Program-made: the position numbers and the translations under genes
Origin: Akkermansiaceae bacterium
Lineage (GTDB): Bacteria > Verrucomicrobiota > Verrucomicrobiia > Verrucomicrobiales > Akkermansiaceae
Reading direction: 5' to 3'
Assembly: GCA_029253285.1 (NCBI GenBank)
Contig: JAQWZU010000195.1
Coordinates: 1 to 32,137, forward strand
DNA: 32,137 nt
Notes under the pieces: model-generated
Told to the model about the DNA's origin: nothing
The model's input: the letters and a program-made list of their open reading frames with translations, nothing else
Databases searched by the model: none
In this document: one piece after another, positions 1,185-30,128 of the stretch
How positions within the stretch are numbered: the stretch's first letter is position 1
Layout: each line of letters starts with the position of its first letter

Positions 1185-3208
1185 CCTTTGCCAATCCAAC
1201 CTGGCTTCTCCTGCTCATCCCTCTTCCTCTCTTAGTGATCGCGGCCGGCATCACCTGGCAGCGGCGCGGAGAGCGTTGGCATGAAATGGTTGCCGACCGT
1301 CATCGCGCCCGCCTGAGCCACCAGCGACCAGTGTGGATTTACTTTACCAGCCTGGCACTCGGGCTTTTTGGATTGGCCGGGCTGATCGTAGCATACGCGC
1401 AACCGGAATCAGGTGAAGAATGGATCGAAACAAAAAACGAAGGACGCAATATTTTGCTCTGCGTCGATATTTCGCGAAGCATGCTCACCAAGGATGTCAG
1501 CCCCAACCGGCTTCTGGCTGCCCGGGCTGCCGCTCTCGACATCGTGGAGCAGTTTCCTCAGGACCGGATCGGCCTCCTCGTTTTCTCCGGAGAAACCCAG
1601 GTTCAGGTTCCCCTCACCATCGACCACACCTTCATCCAACAATCTCTGGCCCAACTCAACCCGGTTGACCTCCCCATCGGGGGCTCCAATCTTGGAGAAG
1701 CCATCCTAACGGGCACACGCGTTCTCGTAGATACCGGCCAGCGCAGCAATGTTCTCGTAATCTTCAGCGATGGAGAGGAATTTTCCTCGGGACTGGAGGA
1801 AGCCGCCAAGACTGCAGTTGATAGCGGGGTCTTTGTCTACGCTCTCGGGTTCGGCACAAAGGCCGGAGACTTCATTCCCGGAGACACTCCGGAGCAACCA
1901 TTTTTCTTCGACCGAAATAACAACCGGGTGCAAAGTCGCCTAAACGAGGAATCGCTCACGATGATTGCCAAAATCAGCGATGGCTTCTATTCCCGGGGCA
2001 TCGGACCAACTTTTTTGCGTAAATTGGATAATGCTATTCAAGAAATGGACCGTTTTGAAGAAGAGGGAAAACATCAACGAGTTGCGAAACCGGCCTATCA
2101 ATGGTTTCTTTTTGGAGGTATCTTATTCCTGATGGCTTCCCTGGCACTTCGCTGTTTCCCGCTTCGCTCTGCGACTGCGGCGGTATTGGCATTCCTTTTT
2201 CTCCCAACACCCCCGGCCCAGGCTAATCCCCTCGCTGATGGTCGAAGCGCATTGCGTCAGGGCGACGCGATGAGAGCACATTCTCTTTTTACCGAAGCGG
2301 CAGAGCAAACCTCCGGAGACCGAGCGTCCCGCATCCATCTGGCAGCAGGGTCGGCAGCCTTTCAGGCTCAGGGATGGAGCTCGGCAGCAGATTCGTTTAG
2401 TCAGGCCCTCGTTAGTAACGATGCCGACCTTAAACAACAGGCTCACTACTCTCTTGCCACGAGTCTTTTCTACCTGGGAAACAAACAGTCAAAAGAAGCC
2501 AAAATAAAAACCTGGCAAGGAGCGATCGAACACTACGAGCAAGCACTGGAAATCACGCCTGACGACGAAAACTCTGAGAAGAATCTCGAGTTGGTCCGGA
2601 AATACCTGAAGGAATTGCAATCCGAAGAAGAGCAGAAAGAGGATCAAAAACAGGAATCATCGGACGACCAGGAAAAGGAGGACGAAGAGCAACCGGATGA
2701 CAAAGAAGAGTCGGAAGATCAGGAAGGTGACAACCAGGACGACAAAGAAGAGTCGGAAAATCAGGAAGGTGACAACCCGGACAACAAAGAAGAGCAATCC
2801 AATCAGGACGAGAACCAATCAGAAGATAAAGAGGAGAGAGAGGACCCATCAAAAGGCGAGGGAGAAAACGAGCAAGAGTCGAGGAAACAAGAGGAGAACA
2901 AGGAAGATGATCAGGACCCAAAGGATAGCGAAGGAAAGTCTGGAAATGAAAATGATCCTCAAAAGGACCAAGAAACTTCAAACAATTCCGAAGAAAAGAA
3001 CCAACAGGGCGCTGAGGATCCTGAGAATAAAGAAAAGTCTGACAAGGAATCCTCAACAGTAAGCGAGGCCGAAAGCGAGCTCCCCCCACCTGATGGAGAA
3101 TCAAGAGAGGAACGAGCAAGGCGCCTCCTCCGTCAACACGCAGACTTTGGCGGCAAGCCTCCAAAATATCGCCGCAGGCCCTTCCGTCGGCCTGAGAAAG
3201 ACTGGTAA
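1181..3208 (+). CDS. batB: BatB-BatC fusion: VWA domain plus TPR region and acidic low-complexity tail
   Basis: I start this at ATG 1181, overlapping the batA stop, rather than at an in-frame ATG at 1106 inside batA; the protein then opens with the usual BatB helix MTFANPTWLLLLIP. It has 675 residues. Segments: two membrane helices (about 7-22 and 53-72), VWA domain (about 88-290) with MIDAS DISRS at 96-100, and a membrane helix at about 306-325. A second, signal-peptide-like hydrophobic stretch ending in TPPAQANPLADG follows at about 330-350. Then come TPR-like helices (about 350-475), a very acidic Glu/Asp/Gln/Asn/Lys region (about 480-640) and an Arg-rich end. The second half corresponds to BatC, normally a separate gene, so this is read as a fusion. 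The acidic tail could be a flexible linker or binding surface. Confidence 0.88.
   Translation: MTFANPTWLLLLIPLPLLVIAAGITWQRRGERWHEMVADRHRARLSHQRPVWIYFTSLALGLFGLAGLIVAYAQPESGEEWIETKNEGRNILLCVDISRSMLTKDVSPNRLLAARAAALDIVEQFPQDRIGLLVFSGETQVQVPLTIDHTFIQQSLAQLNPVDLPIGGSNLGEAILTGTRVLVDTGQRSNVLVIFSDGEEFSSGLEEAAKTAVDSGVFVYALGFGTKAGDFIPGDTPEQPFFFDRNNNRVQSRLNEESLTMIAKISDGFYSRGIGPTFLRKLDNAIQEMDRFEEEGKHQRVAKPAYQWFLFGGILFLMASLALRCFPLRSATAAVLAFLFLPTPPAQANPLADGRSALRQGDAMRAHSLFTEAAEQTSGDRASRIHLAAGSAAFQAQGWSSAADSFSQALVSNDADLKQQAHYSLATSLFYLGNKQSKEAKIKTWQGAIEHYEQALEITPDDENSEKNLELVRKYLKELQSEEEQKEDQKQESSDDQEKEDEEQPDDKEESEDQEGDNQDDKEESENQEGDNPDNKEEQSNQDENQSEDKEEREDPSKGEGENEQESRKQEENKEDDQDPKDSEGKSGNENDPQKDQETSNNSEEKNQQGAEDPENKEKSDKESSTVSEAESELPPPDGESREERARRLLRQHADFGGKPPKYRRRPFRRPEKDW
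2699..2800 (+). repeat. 42-base tandem repeat inside the acidic tail of the BatB-BatC fusion
   Basis: Units starting at 2699, 2741 and 2783 share the gaCAAAGAAGAG opening; the first two are almost identical over 42 bases and the third diverges after about 15 bases. Each unit encodes 14 residues of the form DKEESExQEGDNxD. The repeat is in frame, so copy-number change would lengthen or shorten the acidic tail without breaking the protein. Confidence 0.8.
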
Positions 3209-5522: not shown

Positions 5523-8039
5523 TTACTTGGCAGTTTTCTCAGGCTTCTCGACCTTCTTTTTTGATTTGAAGAAGATCTTACCGTCCTTCTTCTTCACTGC
5601 AGCCGTGACCACATCACCTTCCTTAACCTCTGAGGCCAGAAGGGCTTCCGCCAAGGGGTCTTCAAGAAATCTCTCAACCGCCCGTCTCATTGGGCGAGCC
5701 CCATACTCCGGGTCGTATCCTTTGGTAACGATGAGTTCGCGTGCCGATTTGTCCAAAACCAATTCAATCTCCTTCTCAGCCAGGCGTTCAACAAGTTTCT
5801 TCACTTCGAGATCCACGATCTTATTAAGATGGGTCTTCTCAAGCATGTGGAAGACAACCATCTCATCGAGACGATTCAAGAATTCAGGCCTGAAGTGTTT
5901 TTTGGCAACCTCCTCGATCTTGGCCTTCATTCCTTCGAAATCTCCCTCGCTATCAGCCATGGCATTGAAACCAAGACTAGACTGACGCTTGATGCTGTCA
6001 GCACCGACATTGGAAGTGAGGATGATGATCGTATTACGGAAGTCGATTTTCCGACCAAAACTATCAGTCACCATTCCTTCCTCTAAAATCTGAAGCAGGA
6101 GATTCATCACGTCAGGATGGGCCTTCTCCACTTCATCGAAGAGCACCACTGAGTATGGCCGGCGACGCACCGCTTCCGAAAGCTGACCACCTTCTTCATA
6201 GCCGACGTATCCTGGAGGAGGTCCGATGAGACGACTCGCGCTGAATTTCTCCATGTATTCAGACATATCGATTTGAATCAGGGAGTCAGGGTCGCCGAAC
6301 ATGAAGTTCGCCAGGTTCCGAGCGAGGTAAGTCTTACCAACACCGGTAGGCCCAAGAAACAGGAAGGAACCGATCGGGCGACGGGGATCTTTGAGATCTG
6401 CCCGAGAGCGACGGAGGGCTTTCGAAATCACGACTACAGCCTCATCCTGGCCAATGACAGACTCTTTGAGATCCTTCTCCATATTGAGCAATTTGGCGGC
6501 CTCTCTCTGCTCCATCCGCTGGAGTGGAACGCCAGTCCATTTCGAAACGACTGACATGATGTCATCTTCGACGATATCAACAATCTTCTCCTCACTCTCA
6601 CCACGCCAACCTTCGGTTTCATCGTCGAGTTGTTTGCGGGTACTCTTTTCTTCGTCACGCAAAGAAGCTGCTTTCTCGAAGTCCTGATCGTTTATGGCTG
6701 CGATCTTTTCGTCGTTGATCTCGGCGATACGCCCTTCCAACTGCTTGAGCTCCGGCGGCCGGGTCATTGTGGTGATCCTCGCCCGCGCTCCGGCTTCATC
6801 AACCACGTCAATGGCCTTATCAGGAAGAAAACGGCTGGTTAGGTAGCGAGAGGTCAGCTTAACGGCAGCCTCCAATGCATCGTCAGCATAACGAACTTTG
6901 TGGTGGCTCTCATATTTTTCACGGAGACCTTTCATGATCTCGATCGCGTCATCGACCGAAGGCTCGTCGACCTTGACCTGCTGGAAACGACGCTCCAAAG
7001 CGGCATCTTTTTCGATGTGCTTACGATACTCGTTCATAGTGGTTGCTCCGACACACTGCATCTCAGAACGACTGAGGGCGGGCTTAATGATATTCGAAGC
7101 GTCCATTGCTCCTTCCGCAGACCCCGCACCCACGATGGTGTGAAGTTCATCGATGAAAAGGATGACGTCTTTGACTTTTCGAATTTCATCCATCACGGCC
7201 TTGATCCGCTCTTCAAACTGACCGCGATATTTAGTACCCGCTACCATGAGGGCCAGGTCAAGGGTCACCACTTTCCTATCCCGGAGAATCTCGGGAACAT
7301 CACCAGCTGCAATTTCTTGGGCCAACCCTTCAACAATCGCGGTCTTACCAACACCCGCTTCCCCAACGAGGACAGGGTTATTTTTTGTTCGGCGACAGAG
7401 AATCTGAATCACGCGCTCGATTTCAGGAGCGCGCCCAATAACCGGATCCAACTCACCGGATTTTGCGAGTTTGGTCAAATCCCGACCGAACGCCTTCAAC
7501 GCCGGTGTCTTGGTCTTTCCTTCGGAACTCTCCGCCTCCTCTTCAAGATCAAGATCTTCTTCTCCTTCAAAATCAAAATCTTCTTCAGCATCTTCGGAGG
7601 AAAAATTGGGATCAATCTCCGCCAGGACCTCATTACGAGTTGTGGCAAGATCCACATTGAGGCTGGTCAGGACACGGGAAGCCATGCCCTCTCCTTCACG
7701 CAACAAGCCCAGAAGAATGTGTTCGGTCCCGACATAGGAATGGTTGAGTTGTTTGGCTTCCTTATTTGCCAGTGAGAGAACTTTTTTCACTCTTGGAGTG
7801 TAGGGGATATTCGATGATTTTTTTTGATCCGGACCGGTGCCGACTTCCTTCTCAACTTCCATGCGAACAGATTCGAGATCCAACCCCATCCTCTGAAGAA
7901 CACTCACCGCGACGCCCTGACCGAGCTTGATCAGTCCGAGAAGAACATGTTCGGTTCCAATGTAGTTGTGATTAAAACGGTCAGCCTCTTTCCGGGCCAA
8001 TGCCAGAACTTGCTGGGCGCGAGGTGTGAAATTGCTCAT
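5523..8039 (-). CDS. clpC: ClpC-type AAA+ unfoldase, ATP-dependent Clp protease subunit
   Basis: An 838-residue class I Hsp100 protein of the ClpC type. A double Clp-N domain (about 1-145) binds adaptors and substrates; an unusually acidic linker follows (about 146-175). The first AAA+ domain has Walker A GEAGVGKT (226-233) and Walker B ILFIDE (about 293-298). The middle domain contains a UVR-type helical pair around 430-472, which marks ClpC rather than ClpA or ClpB. The second AAA+ domain has Walker A GPTGVGKT (563-570) and Walker B VVLFDE. A SSLGFN loop near 705 matches the LGF/VGF tripeptide that docks onto ClpP. The C-terminus is Lys-rich. It is the third gene of mcsA-mcsB-clpC, 23 bases after mcsB. 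In Firmicutes McsB tags substrates with phosphoarginine, which the ClpC N-domain recognises; the same use is inferred here. No clpP lies in the window. Confidence 0.97.
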
Positions 8040-8062: not shown

Positions 8063-9154
8063 TTAATGTTTGCTTCCTGAAATATCAATAGCAGGGGGAA
8101 GGGCGGAACGCAACTGATCCCGGATCATTTGCGCTCTCATAATGTCCCGAGCATCGGGCTCGAGCTTACTTCCTGCATCCCACTGCAGATGGGCCGGTTG
8201 AGTTTCCATGAAAAGCCGGTCGCAGGTCTCGACCAATTCTTCCGGCATTACTCCCAGATCAGCCCCCAAACGCAGCATCGAAAGATGAGTCAACGCCTCC
8301 TTAGAAGCAATGATGCGGGCGTAGGTAAGAATACCGGCAGCCCTGCCAATGTGATCCTGCACCATCAAAGGATCATCCGTCATGAGTTTCTCTCTCGCTT
8401 GGGACTCGTATCGCGCCACATCCCCAATAACCTTGGACAGGCGGGCCAAAATATCTTCCTCGCTCTCACCGAGAGTCGATTGATTGGAAATTTGGTAGAG
8501 ATTTCCCAGAGACTCGGTGCCCTCACCATAAAGACCCCTTACCGCCAACCCTAACTTGGCAATTCCCTTCAAAACCTGACCAATTTGATCACTCAGAACC
8601 AAACCGGGCAAATGGAGCATTGATGACGCCCGCATACCAGTTCCCAAGTTCGTGGGACACGCAGTCAGATATCCCCATTTTGGGTGAAAGGCATAGGGCA
8701 GATCTTTCTCAAGAGCCCGGTCGACTTTGTGGGCGAGATGGTAGGCCTCTCTCAATTGCAAACTTGGCCGAATGGCCTGAATGCGGAGGTGATCCTCCTC
8801 GTTTACCATGAGACTCAGTGTCTGCTTGCGGTTCACCACGGTCGCACTCCCCTCATTGCGTGCTGCTTGCTCGCGACTAATTAAATGTCTCTCCACGAGC
8901 ACCTGCTTCTGCAGCGAATCGAGACTCGATAGTTCATGGGAAAAACCACTTTTCATTTCAGGCAAGGCTTCCAGCCTTCCGTGCAGGGATTCCAACAATT
9001 CGCGACGTTGGTTTTTCCTGGCCCAACCAGGAAATGGTGCATTCCGAATATTCCGGGCCAGACGAACACGGCTGGTGACCACCACCGAAGTTTCGGCAGT
9101 GTGCCCCGTCATCCAATCAGCTGGATGCTTAAGAAGTGTCTTAAACCGCATCAT
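8063..9154 (-). CDS. mcsB: McsB protein-arginine kinase
   Basis: A 363-residue ATP:guanido phosphotransferase-family protein that phosphorylates arginine residues of proteins. Visible family features: the substrate/ATP site segment VVVTSRVRLARNIR (about 24-37), the signature NEEDHLRI (118-125) containing the catalytic acidic residues, and the CPTNLGTGMRAS nucleotide-binding loop near 190. The C-terminal part (about 250-350) matches the McsB helical region used to bind phosphoarginine and ClpC. Its ATG overlaps the mcsA stop in an ATGA junction (a second ATG follows directly), so production is coupled to its activator McsA. It has bacterial McsB length and gene neighbours, not those of a metabolic arginine or creatine kinase. 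Confidence 0.93.
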   Translation of the reverse strand: MMRFKTLLKHPADWMTGHTAETSVVVTSRVRLARNIRNAPFPGWARKNQRRELLESLHGRLEALPEMKSGFSHELSSLDSLQKQVLVERHLISREQAARNEGSATVVNRKQTLSLMVNEEDHLRIQAIRPSLQLREAYHLAHKVDRALEKDLPYAFHPKWGYLTACPTNLGTGMRASSMLHLPGLVLSDQIGQVLKGIAKLGLAVRGLYGEGTESLGNLYQISNQSTLGESEEDILARLSKVIGDVARYESQAREKLMTDDPLMVQDHIGRAAGILTYARIIASKEALTHLSMLRLGADLGVMPEELVETCDRLFMETQPAHLQWDAGSKLEPDARDIMRAQMIRDQLRSALPPAIDISGSKH

Positions 9155-9675
9155 AACTCCGATTCCGTAACAGGTTCTTCCGCAACAACAGGGGTGACTT
9201 TCTCCAATTCGTCCCGCAAGCGGCCAGCTTCTTCGTAATTTTCAGCGTCAATCGCCTTCGAGAGACGGCTTTTAAGGTCGTTGAGTTTGGCATCGCGGGC
9301 CTGAGTCGCGACCAAGCCCGCCGGAATGTACCCGACATGGGCGCCTCCTTTGTGGAGGGTGGGAATCCTCTCGCTGATCTCTCTCGCGAGGGCATCGTAG
9401 CACTCCGGACACCCAAGACGTCCGACTTTCTGATAATTGCCGATTCCAAATCCACAAACGGAACATTCGGTGGATGAACCAAGAACCACCTCGGTCTCAG
9501 GAACCGACAGGGTATGATCGAGCACCTGCTCGGCCATTAACAAGCCATCGGGATTCGTGATTCCTTTTTCCTGAGCACAGGTCTCACAGAGGACAAACTT
9601 CTTCAGCTTGCCATCCGCGATCTGGGTATAAAAGACCGTCGCTTTTTCTTCACACAAGTCGCACTTCATCGACAC
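9151..9675 (-). CDS. mcsA: McsA zinc-binding activator of the McsB arginine kinase (UvrB/UvrC motif protein)
   Basis: A 174-residue protein with four Cys-x2-Cys pairs in two zinc modules: CDLC and CETC near the start (about 5-36), CSVC and CPEC in the middle (about 70-98). A UVR motif (about 130-165, core NYEEAGRLRDELEKV) completes the McsA architecture. In Firmicutes McsA activates McsB and takes part in stress signalling. The longest form starts at GTG 9675, about 11 bases after GAGAGG on the coding strand; an ATG at 9669 giving MKCDLC is equally plausible. It is the first gene of mcsA-mcsB-clpC. No CtsR-like repressor gene precedes it, unlike the Bacillus operon; instead an exbD remnant lies upstream. 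Confidence 0.9.
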   Translation of the reverse strand: MSMKCDLCEEKATVFYTQIADGKLKKFVLCETCAQEKGITNPDGLLMAEQVLDHTLSVPETEVVLGSSTECSVCGFGIGNYQKVGRLGCPECYDALAREISERIPTLHKGGAHVGYIPAGLVATQARDAKLNDLKSRLSKAIDAENYEEAGRLRDELEKVTPVVAEEPVTESEL

Positions 9676-9704
9676 GCTTAAGATAACCTCTCCAGTCGCG
9701 ATGG

Positions 9705-10163
9705 CTACTGAAAAGTCTCGGCAGAATCAACAATCCCCACTGAATTGATCTTCATCTCAGCGAGACAATTCAGAATATCGATAAAACGTTGATATTCGCT
9801 GCCTTCGTCACTCCAAACATACACAGTTGGCCCCCAAAAAAAGATCTCTGACCAGATCCAATCGGGCTTTAAGAGTCGGCGAATCCGACCCGCTGCCACT
9901 CAACTCCACGATTTCTTCATTCTTTCCTAATTTCAGGGTGATTTCACCTTCCTTCTCCAAATTGATTCGGGGGACCTCCATCCGGGGGACTTTCCCGCGC
10001 TCACACCCCTGCTGAATAGTGAGACCTTGCTCCGTCCTTACGGTGGACCTTGCAACGAGGAAAAAATGAGGAGTGAAAAACTGACGTCCACCAATGATGA
10101 GATGTCTAATTTCGAGTCATCGGTTTTGAATTTTCTTTGAGATGGGGAGTGTTTTCTTTTCAT
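9705..10163 (-). pseudogene. exbD: ExbD/TolR-family gene with two opposite frameshifts
   Basis: Three overlapping reading frames join into one ExbD/TolR protein. Frame 1 starts at ATG 10163 and gives a basic N-terminus, then KLDISSLVDVSFSLLIF, the typical ExbD transmembrane start with its conserved Asp; it stops soon after. A -1 shift at the six-A run 10061-10066 (plus strand) restores FLVARSTVRTEQGLTIQ and a periplasmic segment (PRINLEKEGEITLKLG). A +1 shift at the A7/C5 run 9831-9842 leads into VYVWSDEGSEYQRFIDIL and the ending MKINSVGIVDS, a normal ExbD C-terminus. The corrected product would have 152 residues, the family's usual size. No exbB/tolQ neighbour is seen. Either this is a decaying gene, or both runs carry sequencing errors and the gene is intact. 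Confidence 0.8.
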
Positions 10164-10245
10164 GACTACTCAGGAAACAAATGAAGCCCCAATCTCCTTG
10201 GATCATTTCTTGCCCAATGATGAAGAGGCCCTAATCTTTTGCCAC

Positions 10246-11034
10246 ATGAACAATGCTCAATTTCTGACAGACATGTTTGGCCTCGAAGGCAAGACCGCCG
10301 TTGTCATCGGTGGAACCGGAGAACTTTGCTCCTACATGGCGCTGGGACTTGCAAAGGCCGGAGCCGAAGTCGTCCTCGTAGGCCGCAACGAAGAAAAGGC
10401 CAACCAACGGCTCAAAGTCATTCGCGAAGCAGGTGGCAAGGGCTATTTCGCCGCAGCTGATGCAGGAAACCGACAATCTCTCAATGAACTCCTCGACTCT
10501 GTCGTCGAGCAATCCGGCAAGATCGACATCCTTATCAATGGCGCGGGAATCAACTCCCCCACTCCGTTTGTCGAAATTACCGACGAAGAAGCGCTCAACA
10601 TTTTTGACATTAACCTCGTCGGCGTCATGCGTGCCTGTCAGGTCTTTGGAAATTACTTCCTGAGCCGCGATGTCCAGGCCTCGATCATCAACCTTGGATC
10701 AATTTCCGGACTGAACCCGCTTTCCCGCGTCTTCACCTATTCAGCATCAAAGGCCGCCGTTCACAATCTCACCCGCAACCTCGCCCGTGAATGGGCCGAT
10801 CGTGACATCCGGGTCAATACCCTCGTTCCCGGATTCTTCCCGGCTGAACAAAACCGGTCCGTTCTCGATGAATCACGAGTTGCGGAGATTCTCCGTCACA
10901 CCCCGGCTTCACGATTTGGTAATCCCGACGAATTGATCGGAGCCACCCTCCTCCTCGCCTCAAACGCAGCAGGCGGATTCATCACCGGCACCGAAGTGGT
11001 CGTCGATGGCGGATTCAACTCGATGACGATCTAG
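10246..11034 (+). CDS. Short-chain dehydrogenase/reductase (SDR), sugar-acid or gluconate dehydrogenase-like
   Basis: A classical SDR with a Rossmann fold. The cofactor loop near the start is [10 protein letters not shown], the NNAG-equivalent motif is NGAGINSP, the catalytic Ser is in NLGSISG, and the Tyr/Lys pair is YSASK. It ends in the usual [11 protein letters not shown]. The substrate cannot be read from sequence; the overall pattern resembles gluconate 5-dehydrogenase and mannonate/fructuronate-type SDRs, so sugar or sugar-acid oxidation is likely. I chose ATG 10246 because family members begin shortly before [13 protein letters not shown]. An in-frame ATG at 10162 would add 28 residues, has GGGGAG about 13 bases ahead, and would overlap the opposing exbD start codon. 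The stop shares the palindrome CTAG (11031-11034) with the stop of the ftsB-like gene on the other strand. Confidence 0.85.
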
Positions 11035-11510: not shown

Positions 11511-14673
<3,163 letters not shown>

Positions 14674-14752: not shown

Positions 14753-15451
14753 TCAATTTGTTTCCTTCGGCTTTGGATCTCGTGCAATATACCTCACCCG
14801 ACTCTTCCTCTCTCCTGACCCAGACGATGACTTTTGGACCAAGGTCATCTGCAAAACCATAAAAGGCTCCATCCATCGAGGCTCCAATGAATTGGACAGG
14901 TTGACAGGAGTTAACTCTTTGTCAAAAAGCGCTTTATCATCTTTTATTACCTTCAACCACCATCCATGAGGTCGTTTTTCCAGGGTGAAATGCTCTCCAT
15001 TGACCGTCATTTCGGTCGTCTCCACCGAACTCTCAAGTCTGCGGGAACCTTGCTCAGGAATATCCCGCGATCCCCTGCTCGAAACGACATAGCTCTTGGA
15101 TTTGGGCCATTCGGAGAGAACCAATGATAAGTTTTTCGGCTGATTATTCCTAAAAAATTCCACCTTCACCCTGTCTCCTGGCTTTTTCCCCCGTAATAGA
15201 ACAACTAATTGTCCCCGACTGACCAGAATCTGACCGTCAAATTTCCACCACAAATCACCCTTCAGTCCACCAGATTTTTCTAGTGGTCCATTCCGGGCAA
15301 CATGTCGAACACTCAGGCCCACCCCGTTAGCCACTCCCGCTGCCACTGATTCTTCGCCTTTAGGACAATGCAAAGATACACCAATCCATGGGAGCCTCCC
15401 CGCGAATAGCAAAGAACTCGAAAGAAAAAACAGACAAACGAAGGACTTCAT
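14753..15451 (-). CDS. Secreted PDZ-domain protein
   Basis: A 232-residue protein with a signal peptide (about 1-17, SSSLLFAG at the cleavage side). A PDZ-like domain follows (about 20-105), recognisable from IGVSLHC..., the 'NGPLEKSGGLKGDLWWKFDGQ' type segment and RGKKPGDRVKVEFFRN. The rest (about 130-232) is beta-rich and unassigned. PDZ domains bind exposed C-termini or unfolded segments, but no protease domain is present. It lies 16 bases after the anti-sigma gene and is probably the third gene of the sigma operon, which suggests a role in sensing or responding to envelope conditions; that is inference from position. Confidence 0.72.
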   Translation of the reverse strand: MKSFVCLFFLSSSLLFAGRLPWIGVSLHCPKGEESVAAGVANGVGLSVRHVARNGPLEKSGGLKGDLWWKFDGQILVSRGQLVVLLRGKKPGDRVKVEFFRNNQPKNLSLVLSEWPKSKSYVVSSRGSRDIPEQGSRRLESSVETTEMTVNGEHFTLEKRPHGWWLKVIKDDKALFDKELTPVNLSNSLEPRWMEPFMVLQMTLVQKSSSGSGERKSRVRYIARDPKPKETN

Positions 15452-16774: not shown

Positions 16775-16853
16775 TTTCAATCTGTTAACGGCGCAGCTCT
16801 TAAGCCCGGCTTTGCCTGCATGCAAGAAATTCTTGGAAGATTTCTAAAAAAAA

Positions 16854-26493: not shown

Positions 26494-27921
26494 ATGCGAA
26501 TCGCCTTCGACAATACCTACGCGCGACTCCCCGGAAGATTCTACTTCAAACAGGAAGCCGCGCAGGTTCCCGGGCCAGAAATCATCCAGATCAACACCTC
26601 ACTGGCCAAGAACCTCTCGCTTGACCCTGATGAGCTCAAGTCCGCCGAAGGTCTGGCTTTCCTCTCAGGTAATGCGACTCCGGAAGGTGCCGATCCTCTG
26701 GCGCAAGCCTACGCCGGACATCAGTTCGGCAACTTTTCCCCGCAGCTCGGAGACGGACGGGCACTCCTCATCGGCGAACTTCTGGATCAATCTGGCAAAC
26801 GGTTCGATCTCCAGCTCAAGGGATCTGGACCCACGCCCTTCTCCCGTAGCGGTGATGGCAGGTCCGCCCTCGGCCCCGTTCTACGGGAATACATCGTGAG
26901 CGAAGCGATGGCGGCCTTTGGCGTCCCCACCACCCGCGCTCTGGCGGCGGTTTCGACCGGGGAACCCGTCCACCGTCAAGACGGACCGGAACCCGGAGGG
27001 ATCTTCACAAGAATCGCGGCGAGCCATATTCGTGTGGGGACCTTTCAATACTTCTATGGCCGCAACGATGCGGAAGCGCTTCAGATTCTGACCGACTATA
27101 CCATCGAGCGCCACTATCCTGAAGCTAGTGATCCCATCGAGCTCCTTCGAGCGGTCATCGCAGCTCATGCTTCGCTGGTTGCGCATTGGATGTCGTTGGG
27201 ATTCATCCATGGCGTCATGAATACCGACAACTGTGCCATTTCCGGGGAGACCATCGACTTCGGCCCATGCGCCTTCATGGATCAATTTCATCCGCAATGT
27301 GTCTTCAGTTCGATTGATCGTAATGCGCGCTACGCCTGGGGAAACCAAGCCAGTATTGCGCACTGGAATCTCATGCGCTTCGCGGAAACGCTTCTGCCCT
27401 TGATTGATTCCGATACAGACAAAGCCATCACTCTGGCTGAAACCGAACTCAAAGCCTTCGGAGACCTGTTTCAAAAAGACTATCAAACACGCTTCCTTCA
27501 AAAACTTGGACTTCCTGAAACCTCATCGCGTGACGAGATTGACCGATGCCTGAAACTTCTCACCGAACAGCAAATCGATTTCACTCTTTTCTTCCGACGC
27601 CTCACCCAATTCGCCGCGGGAGAATCAAGCGAACCGCTTGCCGAATTATTCCCTGACAAAGTCACCTTCAAGGACTGGCTCAACGATTGGAATCGATCAT
27701 CGCTCGACGTCTCGAAGATGCGTGAAGCCAATCCCATCCTCATTCCAAGAAACCATCGCGTGGAGCAAACTATCCAGGCAAGCTACCAAGGGGACCTCGC
27801 GCCTTTCCATCGACTCATCGATGCCTTAAAGAGTCCCTTTACCGAACAAGAGGAATACTCCGATCTCGAAACGCCTCCTCGTCCCGAGGAGGTCGTTCAC
27901 GAAACCTTCTGCGGAACCTAA
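26494..27921 (+). CDS. selO: SelO (YdiU-family) protein adenylyltransferase
   Basis: A 475-residue pseudokinase that transfers AMP from ATP to Ser, Thr or Tyr residues of proteins, linked in E. coli and yeast to redox stress. Features: QAYAGHQFGNFSPQLGDGRA (about 71-90), the lysine of QLKGSGPTPFSRSGDG (about 107-122), the catalytic-loop-like HGVMNTDN (239-246) and IDFGP (about 254-258, the DFG Asp). I start at ATG 26494 because the in-frame TTG at 26476 gives only six extra residues. It ends in ...TFCGT with a cysteine near the C-terminus, not selenocysteine (codon TGC). Its stop overlaps the stop of the sulfatase on the other strand. It is the only gene of its strand here, opposite the beta-propeller operon. 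Confidence 0.95.
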   Translation: MRIAFDNTYARLPGRFYFKQEAAQVPGPEIIQINTSLAKNLSLDPDELKSAEGLAFLSGNATPEGADPLAQAYAGHQFGNFSPQLGDGRALLIGELLDQSGKRFDLQLKGSGPTPFSRSGDGRSALGPVLREYIVSEAMAAFGVPTTRALAAVSTGEPVHRQDGPEPGGIFTRIAASHIRVGTFQYFYGRNDAEALQILTDYTIERHYPEASDPIELLRAVIAAHASLVAHWMSLGFIHGVMNTDNCAISGETIDFGPCAFMDQFHPQCVFSSIDRNARYAWGNQASIAHWNLMRFAETLLPLIDSDTDKAITLAETELKAFGDLFQKDYQTRFLQKLGLPETSSRDEIDRCLKLLTEQQIDFTLFFRRLTQFAAGESSEPLAELFPDKVTFKDWLNDWNRSSLDVSKMREANPILIPRNHRVEQTIQASYQGDLAPFHRLIDALKSPFTEQEEYSDLETPPRPEEVVHETFCGT

Positions 27922-30128
27922 AGCCCGAATTCCTTCAGCTTGGGCTCGATCGCCTCGGCCCAAATCTTGTATCCCTCTGCTTTTGGGTGAAGGAAGTCAG
28001 GCATGATTGCCTTGGGCAAAACTCCATCCTTATCGAGGAACTTGCCCCCGATGTCCATGAAGTGAACCCGCTCGCCATCAGCAAGTTTTGCGATGCGTTC
28101 ATTGATGGCATTGTTGATCTGTCGAAGCTTCCCATCGGGCTTGTGGTCACGAGGAAAAACACCTAAGAGTAAAACTTTCGCTAGGGGACAACGGGCACGA
28201 AGCGCGGAGAGAATTCGCTCAATTCCGTCGGCGGTCTCACTCGGATCCTGCTGACTATGTCCGGTATTATTCGTGCCGATCATCATCACGATGGCCTTGG
28301 CATCTTTCTGCTTCTGCAACTCACGATTATTGATCCTCCAGAGAACGTGTTCGGTCCGATCCCCCGAAAAACCAAGGTTCAAGGCTTTGCGCCCGCCGTA
28401 GTATTTTTCCCAGGTGGCCTTACCGGCACCCTCCCAGGAATGCGTGATGGAATCACCAATGAAGATGAGATCGTGGGACTGCTTGCGAGCTTCCGCCACT
28501 TTCTGGGCGTGGCGCTTTTTCCACCATTCTTGGTTATTTCGATCAGCGCGAAGGATCGCCGAGTGCGCACGATACTTGCCCTTCAGCTTGGCATACTCCT
28601 GCTGAAGTTCACTGAGCTTCGCTGTGTAAGCGGGGTCCTTATGAACACTCCTCATCTGCTGCGGATCTTTCTTAAGATCGAACAACTGCCACTCTTTCGT
28701 TTTGGGAACATAGAAGGCGGTGAAGTCTTCCGTGCGCACTCCATCATGAGCTGCCACCTGATGGGTCCGCTCTCCGTAGTAGGTGTAGTAGATCGATTTC
28801 CGCCAATCATCTGGAGCCTTGCCACTATTCTTGAGAACGGGAACTAGGCTCTTTCCTTGAAGATCTTTGGGAATCTCCGCTCCGCAGACATCGAGGAAAG
28901 TTGAAGCGTAATCGATATTTTGGATGAGCGCCTTTGACGACGAACCCGGCTTAATCACGCCAGGCCAGCGAATCACGAAGGGCATCTGAAAGGACTCTTC
29001 AAACATCCATCGTTTGTCGTACCACCCGTGTTCACCCAGATAAAACCCCTGGTCCGAGGAATAGATCACAATCGTGTTTTTTGCTAAACCAGACTCATCG
29101 AGGTAATCGAGAATCTTTCCAATCCCTTCGTCCATACTGCGAATCGTCGCAAGATAGTCTTTGATATAGCGCTGGTATTTCCACCGAACGACATCCTTGT
29201 CGGTCAGCTTATCCGCTTTCATGTCCGCGATGAATTTCTGGTTCTGCGGCTCATAAACGGCATCCCAGGCTTTCTTCTGCTCGGGCGTCATTCGCTTGTA
29301 TTCGCCATTAGCGAGCCCACTCATAAAGTGATTGGGAAAGGGGTTCTTTTCATGGAACTTCATGTCCCAGCCCCAGAACATGTGCTTGTCGATTCCCATG
29401 GCGTGTTCTTTGAGCACGGAAGACCGATTTTCATATGCATCAAACAATGTGTCCGGCTCAGGCATGGTGACGCCGTCAAACATCTTGATGTGACGCAAGG
29501 CCGGCGACCAGTTACGGTGAGGGGCCTTGAACTGCGACATCATCACAAAGGGTTTACTCTTATCGCGGCCATTCTTGAGCCATTCGAGAGAAAACTCGGT
29601 CACCTTGTCGTTGCCGTATCCCTCGTAGCGCTTGCGGCTCCCGTCCATTTCAATGAAGTCCGGATTATAGTAACTCCCCTGCCCTGGAAGAATTCGCCAA
29701 AAGTCAAAACCAACGGGATTCGAATGAAGGTGCCACTTTCCGATCATTGCCGACTGGTAGCCTGTCTTACCCAAAAGCTGGGGAAAGGTCTGCTGCAACC
29801 CATCGAAGTGCGAAGAGTTGTTATCGAGGAAGCCATTCATGTGACTGTGCTTTCCGGTCAGAATAGAGGCCCGGGAGGGCCCGCAAATCCCATTGGCGCA
29901 GAAGCTATTGGTGAAAATCAAGCCCTCCTTGGCAATGCGATCAATCGACGGCGTCGGAGCAACCTTGTCAAAAAGTCCGCCGGGATAGCAGGAAATGGCA
30001 TTCGGAGCGTGATCGTCGGAAAAGAGGAAAAGGATATTGGGGCGCTCCTCGGCACTCGCCATTCCAGGAAGGAGGCTGAGTGCAGAAAGAAGAGCACGTT
30101 GGGGCCGAAGCCAGAGGGTCATGTTCAT
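27918..30128 (-). CDS. Secreted sulfatase fused to an SGNH/GDSL hydrolase
   Basis: A 736-residue two-domain protein with a signal peptide (about 1-26, PGMASA). The sulfatase domain (about 29-500) has FSDDHAPN with the metal aspartates D38 and D39, the modification motif CGPSR (82-86) whose Cys would become formylglycine, LTGKHSH, and IYSSDQGFYLGEHG (the second metal site). A linker (about 505-545) leads to an SGNH hydrolase (about 551-736) with GDS (558-560), the Gly of LGFSGD, Asn of GTNNTGH (about 620) and the Asp-His pair in DFLHPK (about 711-714). The combination suggests concerted removal of sulfate and acetyl groups from algal or animal polysaccharide; substrate is inferred only. Its stop overlaps the selO stop. 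A transcription terminator lies upstream of its start. Confidence 0.92.
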   Translation of the reverse strand: MNMTLWLRPQRALLSALSLLPGMASAEERPNILFLFSDDHAPNAISCYPGGLFDKVAPTPSIDRIAKEGLIFTNSFCANGICGPSRASILTGKHSHMNGFLDNNSSHFDGLQQTFPQLLGKTGYQSAMIGKWHLHSNPVGFDFWRILPGQGSYYNPDFIEMDGSRKRYEGYGNDKVTEFSLEWLKNGRDKSKPFVMMSQFKAPHRNWSPALRHIKMFDGVTMPEPDTLFDAYENRSSVLKEHAMGIDKHMFWGWDMKFHEKNPFPNHFMSGLANGEYKRMTPEQKKAWDAVYEPQNQKFIADMKADKLTDKDVVRWKYQRYIKDYLATIRSMDEGIGKILDYLDESGLAKNTIVIYSSDQGFYLGEHGWYDKRWMFEESFQMPFVIRWPGVIKPGSSSKALIQNIDYASTFLDVCGAEIPKDLQGKSLVPVLKNSGKAPDDWRKSIYYTYYGERTHQVAAHDGVRTEDFTAFYVPKTKEWQLFDLKKDPQQMRSVHKDPAYTAKLSELQQEYAKLKGKYRAHSAILRADRNNQEWWKKRHAQKVAEARKQSHDLIFIGDSITHSWEGAGKATWEKYYGGRKALNLGFSGDRTEHVLWRINNRELQKQKDAKAIVMMIGTNNTGHSQQDPSETADGIERILSALRARCPLAKVLLLGVFPRDHKPDGKLRQINNAINERIAKLADGERVHFMDIGGKFLDKDGVLPKAIMPDFLHPKAEGYKIWAEAIEPKLKEFGL

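Follow-up and report, generated by a model that had tools for sequence, protein, structure and literature searches.

In proteins of the ExbD family, a functional role is ascribed to a conserved aspartate of the membrane segment, and the genes that encode them usually, though not universally, have an exbB-type partner within their own cluster. In X. campestris, exbD2 is a tandem second exbD gene that is reported not to be required for iron uptake (PMC3551730). Bacterial pseudogenes are reported to occur at various stages of decay (PMC2916853). Here we describe a locus that is very probably a pseudogene of this family, namely an orphan ExbD paralog in decay. It lies in the window analyzed here, which is the entire contig C114 (32,137 nucleotides) of a draft genome of 4.31 Mb, assembled into 224 contigs (hereafter G000), from an uncultured bacterium that probably belongs to the Akkermansiaceae. 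A literature search on exbD with pseudogene and frameshift returned this locus in no title or abstract opening among the matches listed, and a search on Akkermansiaceae with ExbD found no paper.

Results

The exbD copy and its surroundings

The exbD coding sequence of G000 begins with an ATG at 10163 and ends with a TAG at 9707-9705 on the minus strand, and its reading frame is interrupted by two frame changes (Table 1). When read through these frame changes, the protein (152 aa as joined) matched the Pfam ExbD family (PF02472) with 49.8 bits (E 4.6e-13), the curated cut-off being 25.4 bits; among the separate pieces, only the first and the third gave a match, in each case below this cut-off. 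A profile of orphan ExbDs matched all three pieces in order (46.4, 87.6 and 55.6 bits), with a best score reached by 0 of 200 shuffles, although the G000 copy is itself part of this profile and the match is therefore not independent. The single N-terminal membrane segment with its conserved aspartate (SSLVDVSFSLLIF) is present and aligns, by sequence only, with those of paralogs and orthologs. Thus, the earlier note, made from the letters of the window, was right to recognize an ExbD protein with frame changes at an A6 and an A7/C5 run, both of which are present as it gave them. Its view of the gene as an orphan with no exbB nearby also held when exbB/tolQ was sought elsewhere in the genome: no MotA_ExbB match was found on contig C114, and all eight matches in the genome (E <= 0.001) are on other contigs, as are ten other ExbD matches; none of these has an internal stop.

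Table 1. Window coordinates of the exbD copy, its frame changes and the adjoining genes.
Feature	Position	Strand	Basis
clpC-like gene (Clp_N, AAA and ClpB_D2-small domains), open	5523-8039	-	
mcsB-like gene (ATP:guanido phosphotransferase domain), open	8063-9154	-	
mcsA-like gene (UvrB/UvrC motif), open, downstream neighbor; likely start 9669	9151-9675	-	name from motif and neighbors
Broken orphan exbD (very probable pseudogene), three stretches in two frames	9705-10163	-	frame reading, Pfam and profile matches
exbD third stretch, with the C-terminal part of ExbD (YQRFIDILNCLAEM) and the stop	9705-9830	-	15.0 bits against Pfam ExbD, under cut-off
C5/A7 run (C5 9831-9835, A7 9836-9842), second frame change; G000 two bases short versus G002	9831-9842		
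exbD middle stretch, other frame	9843-10060	-	87.6 bits against orphan profile; no Pfam ExbD match alone
A6 run, first frame change; frame runs through in G002; G000 one base short versus G002	10061-10066		
exbD first stretch, with the start codon and the membrane segment that holds the conserved Asp (SSLVDVSF)	10067-10163	-	13.4 bits against Pfam ExbD, under cut-off
Short-chain dehydrogenase gene, divergent neighbor, open	10246-11034	+	

The listed open reading frame of the dehydrogenase starts at 10162 and overlaps the exbD start, but its relatives indicate 10246 as the likely start. Elsewhere in the window, a 736-aa protein (27918-30128) combines a sulfatase domain with a GDSL lipase domain, and a 611-aa protein (12838-14673) ends in a GreA/GreB-type domain pair, its first ~450 residues having no Pfam match at E <= 1.

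Lesions compared with relatives

Among the relatives found, G002 is the closest, and it is collinear with the full window in one block (G002:C12) at 92.6% identity. Its exbD, located at the same place, runs in a single frame across both G000 shift sites and is broken otherwise, with CTG at the start position, a stop at codon 9 and a frame change near the 3′ end, so that the two copies have no lesion in common. Over the 459 bp there are four single-base gaps, the base being absent from G000 in three and from G002 in one; of the three bases missing from G000, one falls at the first site and the other two at the second. The length from the start position to the codon of the YQxFID motif is 369 nt in G000, versus 372 nt in each of G002, G006 and G001 (in the more diverged G022, 384 nt separate the start position from the corresponding YQDYLG codon). 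Because of this difference in length and of the alignment gaps, the frame changes of G000 are, as judged by alignment, losses at both sites and not a loss and a gain, which overturns the claim of two opposite, compensating indels (-1 and +1) in the earlier note. These lesions are likewise absent from the open relatives G006, G022 and G001, as is expected of a pseudogene.

None of 28 other genes or open reading frames of the window shows a net frame change relative to G002: the gaps there either have lengths divisible by three or, in 1190-3208 and 14753-15451, offset one another within some ten bases. A run-length difference between G000 and G002 (A8 versus A7) occurs just outside a gene, at 16853. 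In a VWA/TPR protein, a repeat-like region that appears acidic by eye (2698-2760) carries in-frame length differences of 42 bp and 9 bp from G002.

Substitution pattern

Substitutions between G000 and G002 were counted by the Nei-Gojobori method; gapped and stop codons were dropped, the last codons past the G002 frame change were left out, and the parts of exbD were delimited by the frame breaks. Among the window genes compared, exbD alone shows near-neutral substitution, with a dN of 0.174 and a dN/dS of 0.65 over 134 codons, whereas in the 28 comparators dN is 0.005-0.062 and dN/dS is 0.02-0.34 in 27 genes, the exception being one doubtful ORF with 11 differences (0.51). The exbD count of 48 nonsynonymous and 21 synonymous differences stands against about 500 and 1,496 in the pooled comparators (Fisher p 3.5e-14), and differences at the three codon positions number 20, 26 and 23 in exbD versus 321, 173 and 1503 in the comparators. 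The dN/dS of the whole gene is that of relaxed selection, but the parts differ, falling from 1.19 in the first (31 codons) and 0.87 in the middle (73 codons) to 0.10 in the third, which comprises the last 30 comparable codons and holds 9 differences only.

The 3′ end of exbD and the region upstream of mcsA

Differences from G002 are likewise fewer at the 3′ end by raw count, 10 of 129 positions in 9705-9833 as opposed to 61 of 322 in 9843-10163 (Fisher p 0.0026, with a cut chosen after seeing the data). The exbD stop falls in a block upstream of mcsA that visual inspection finds in 18 of the 20 genus members, the exceptions being G006 and G039. At 9682-9714, this block resembles TTTTC(G/A)GTAGCCAT, and many members have a facing arm (GTAGCCA...TGGCTAC); the resulting inverted repeat is perfect upstream of mcsA in six genomes and imperfect in G000. 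Lying before mcsA-mcsB-clpC, the block and arm are possibly a candidate operator or hairpin. A search across the genus for the inverted repeat as a possible shared operator gave no support for a regulon: three further perfect copies lie elsewhere, and seven genomes have one copy each of the reversed control pattern. The less diverged 3′ end of exbD may represent either control sequence of mcsA or a protein constraint that was lost late.

Paralogs

From which ExbD might the orphan derive? Contig C122 of G000 carries an exbB-exbD-exbD set, and, judged by proxy, the second ExbD of this set appears to be the paralog most like the orphan. When the G006 orphan was compared with places in G000, the C122 protein was the best match (44% identity, E 9.5e-26; next, 1.4e-6), and the G002 orphan shares 37% identity with the C122 ExbD. 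The latter is the same in G000 and G002, with 100% identity over 158 of 158 residues; G005 and G017 also come near G000 in this paralog (99 and 98%).

Survey of the genus

We searched 27 genomes of the genus, in 20 of which the spacer between the dehydrogenase gene and mcsA could be measured. The spacer is 576 bp in G000, 579 bp in G002, 586 bp in G006 and 624 bp in G022; it is intermediate in G004 (460 bp), G040 (404 bp) and G020 (339 bp), and short in the others (165-220 bp in 12 genomes and 98 bp in G039). The other seven genomes gave no length: in G016, mcsA is at a contig end with no dehydrogenase match; in G001, the genes are on different contigs; in G011, the dehydrogenase was found with no mcsA match; and in G005, G008, G017 and G023, neither was found (for the dehydrogenase, at E <= 1e-60). 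At the dehydrogenase-side end of the spacer (10164-10245 in the window), a GCAAG block is invariant in 20 of 20 aligned spacers and may belong to the promoter or leader of the dehydrogenase gene.

Across the genus, three genomes have an open orphan exbD and two a broken one; in two or three others it is eroded, and 13 of the 20 measured spacers lack it. Full-length open frames above the Pfam cut-off are present in G006 (148 aa) and G022 (154 aa), and G001 has an open 152-aa copy that adjoins the dehydrogenase gene and is 45% identical to the G006 copy. The membrane segment of the G022 copy has an unusual start. In G001 (locus L199), the orphan exbD is followed by another gene that looks ThuA-like by eye, mcsA being on a different contig. 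To the intermediate and short spacers we applied a remnant profile, which consists of the orphan ExbDs and the C122 paralog and contains no remnants. G004 gave pieces of 7.6 and 6.5 bits, and G040 one of 4.2 bits and a second of -0.6; these scores are low, but the best score of each spacer was reached by 0 of 200 shuffles and the pieces are correctly ordered. The score of G020 (0.9 bits, reached by 2 of 200 shuffles) is marginal, and in the 13 shorter spacers the best score was reached by 8 to 174 of 200 shuffles. A plain tblastn search with the orphan ExbDs did not separate the remnants of G004, G040 and G020 from shuffles, giving 17.7-19.2 bits against a maximum of 23.5 in 420 shuffled spacers.

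In a tree of the dehydrogenase, McsA and McsB, from which G001 was left out, the broken pair G000/G002 (support 100) clusters with G006 (support 89) and G022 (support 72), and the eroded pair G004/G040 (support 99) is placed among genomes that lack the orphan gene. The simplest reading is that of independent losses within the genus, with the absence of the orphan elsewhere in the genus also probably due to loss; several nodes of the tree are weak (44-75), however, and this, the omission of G001 and the tblastn result all weaken the case for repeated loss. An ExbD match was found in one (L154, not adjacent) of 80 named loci around related dehydrogenases, in a search that covered open stretches of at least 40 codons and would miss remnants.

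Discussion

How might the G000 locus have reached its present state? We propose that the orphan exbD stood between the divergent short-chain dehydrogenase gene and mcsA-mcsB-clpC and that, when whole, it would have encoded a single-span inner-membrane subunit needing an ExbB partner encoded elsewhere, as the ExbD family would lead one to expect. Its loss might have been tolerated through redundancy, ten other ExbD genes having been kept in the genome. The relaxation of selection would date to about the time at which G000 and G002 diverged, or earlier, and separate lesions would then have struck the two copies: G000 came to lack one base at the first run and two at the second, whereas in G002 the start codon was lost and a premature stop and a frame change near the 3′ end arose. 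Elsewhere in the genus, the gene would have shrunk to remnants or disappeared. The G000 copy itself would probably no longer give a functional protein. The decay that the earlier note offered as one of two explanations was a recent one, and the lesions, unshared with G002, agree with that dating; the substitutions, on the other hand, point to a relaxed constraint over most of the G000-G002 path. In the comparison with related genomes, the copy in G002 is broken too, by other lesions, and those of G006, G022 and G001 are open.

Sequencing error, the other explanation that the earlier note had offered, would place faults of sequencing or assembly at two homopolymer runs of an intact exbD. Both frame changes do lie at runs of five to seven identical bases, the protein is otherwise readable, the assembly is a draft in many contigs, and the run at 16853 shows that one such length difference from G002 exists outside genes. 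Nevertheless, we consider error very improbable, and we favor decay because the G002 copy is differently broken, by substitutions too, because the neighbors have no net frame change in any of the 28 comparisons, and because exbD has evolved near-neutrally. Indel errors do not produce substitutions, and the near-neutral pattern is therefore not explained by run bases lost in one assembly; moreover, the second site is short of two bases and not one, and the net loss over the gene is three. Some observations do weigh against decay: the low dN/dS of the last 30 comparable codons, few as their differences are; the possibility that a total loss of three bases, returning to frame, arises in a gene still under selection; and the occurrence of run-length differences outside genes. 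Under another explanation, full-length ExbD would be made from the locus as it stands, by programmed ribosomal frameshifting or by slippage of the polymerase at the coding-strand runs T6 and T7. The open middle frame connects both ends, and the coding-strand sequence of the first site is T TTT TTC, which we take to be a slippery-type heptamer. We rejected this explanation, which is hardly credible, on the ground that the shift is not conserved, the frames of G002, G006 and G001 being continuous through both sites; it would also require two shifts of different kind, and the first two parts of exbD lack normal protein constraint.

A further proposal, which adds to the reading of decay and does not oppose it, is that the protein is dead while the 3′ part of the gene is kept through its overlap with the control region of mcsA-mcsB-clpC. 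The scarcity of differences in the last 129 bp and the position of the exbD stop inside the block upstream of mcsA both point this way. We hold the proposal tentatively, as something short of an even chance, since the cut point was picked after the data had been seen and since third positions account for six of the nine differences in the comparable codons there, which would also fit protein constraint. More doubtful is a combined scheme, in which the whole orphan ExbD of G006, G001 and G022 would be a free-standing spare subunit entering an ExbB-ExbD-ExbD motor encoded elsewhere and the 3′ end in G000 would live on as a leader controlling mcsA-mcsB-clpC once the protein had died; we think it unlikely.

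With regard to decay of the orphan ExbD, which remains our preferred explanation, the case indicates how decay can be told from assembly error without reads, namely by a collinear relative with other lesions, by intact neighbors and by near-neutral substitution concentrated in the suspect gene. It also presents one small gene, at one place in one genus, in successive grades: open, broken, eroded and absent.

How does the locus compare with known systems? The read-through G000 protein is like members of the ExbD/TolR family (PF02472) in its score, its membrane segment with the aspartate and its C-terminal part, and the G000 copy differs from them in that its frame is not open and its contig has no MotA_ExbB match. 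The second ExbD of an exbB-exbD-exbD cluster, represented in G000 by C122 and comparable to exbD2 of X. campestris (PMC3551730), provides the best paralog by proxy; the C122 copy, however, is open and identical to that of G002, whereas the orphan stands alone beside mcsA. The case resembles bacterial pseudogenes (PMC2916853) in its broken frame, in its near-neutral substitution and in the gene's erosion and apparent removal, with no notable difference; the locus is very probably an ordinary pseudogene, and one that comparison documents well.
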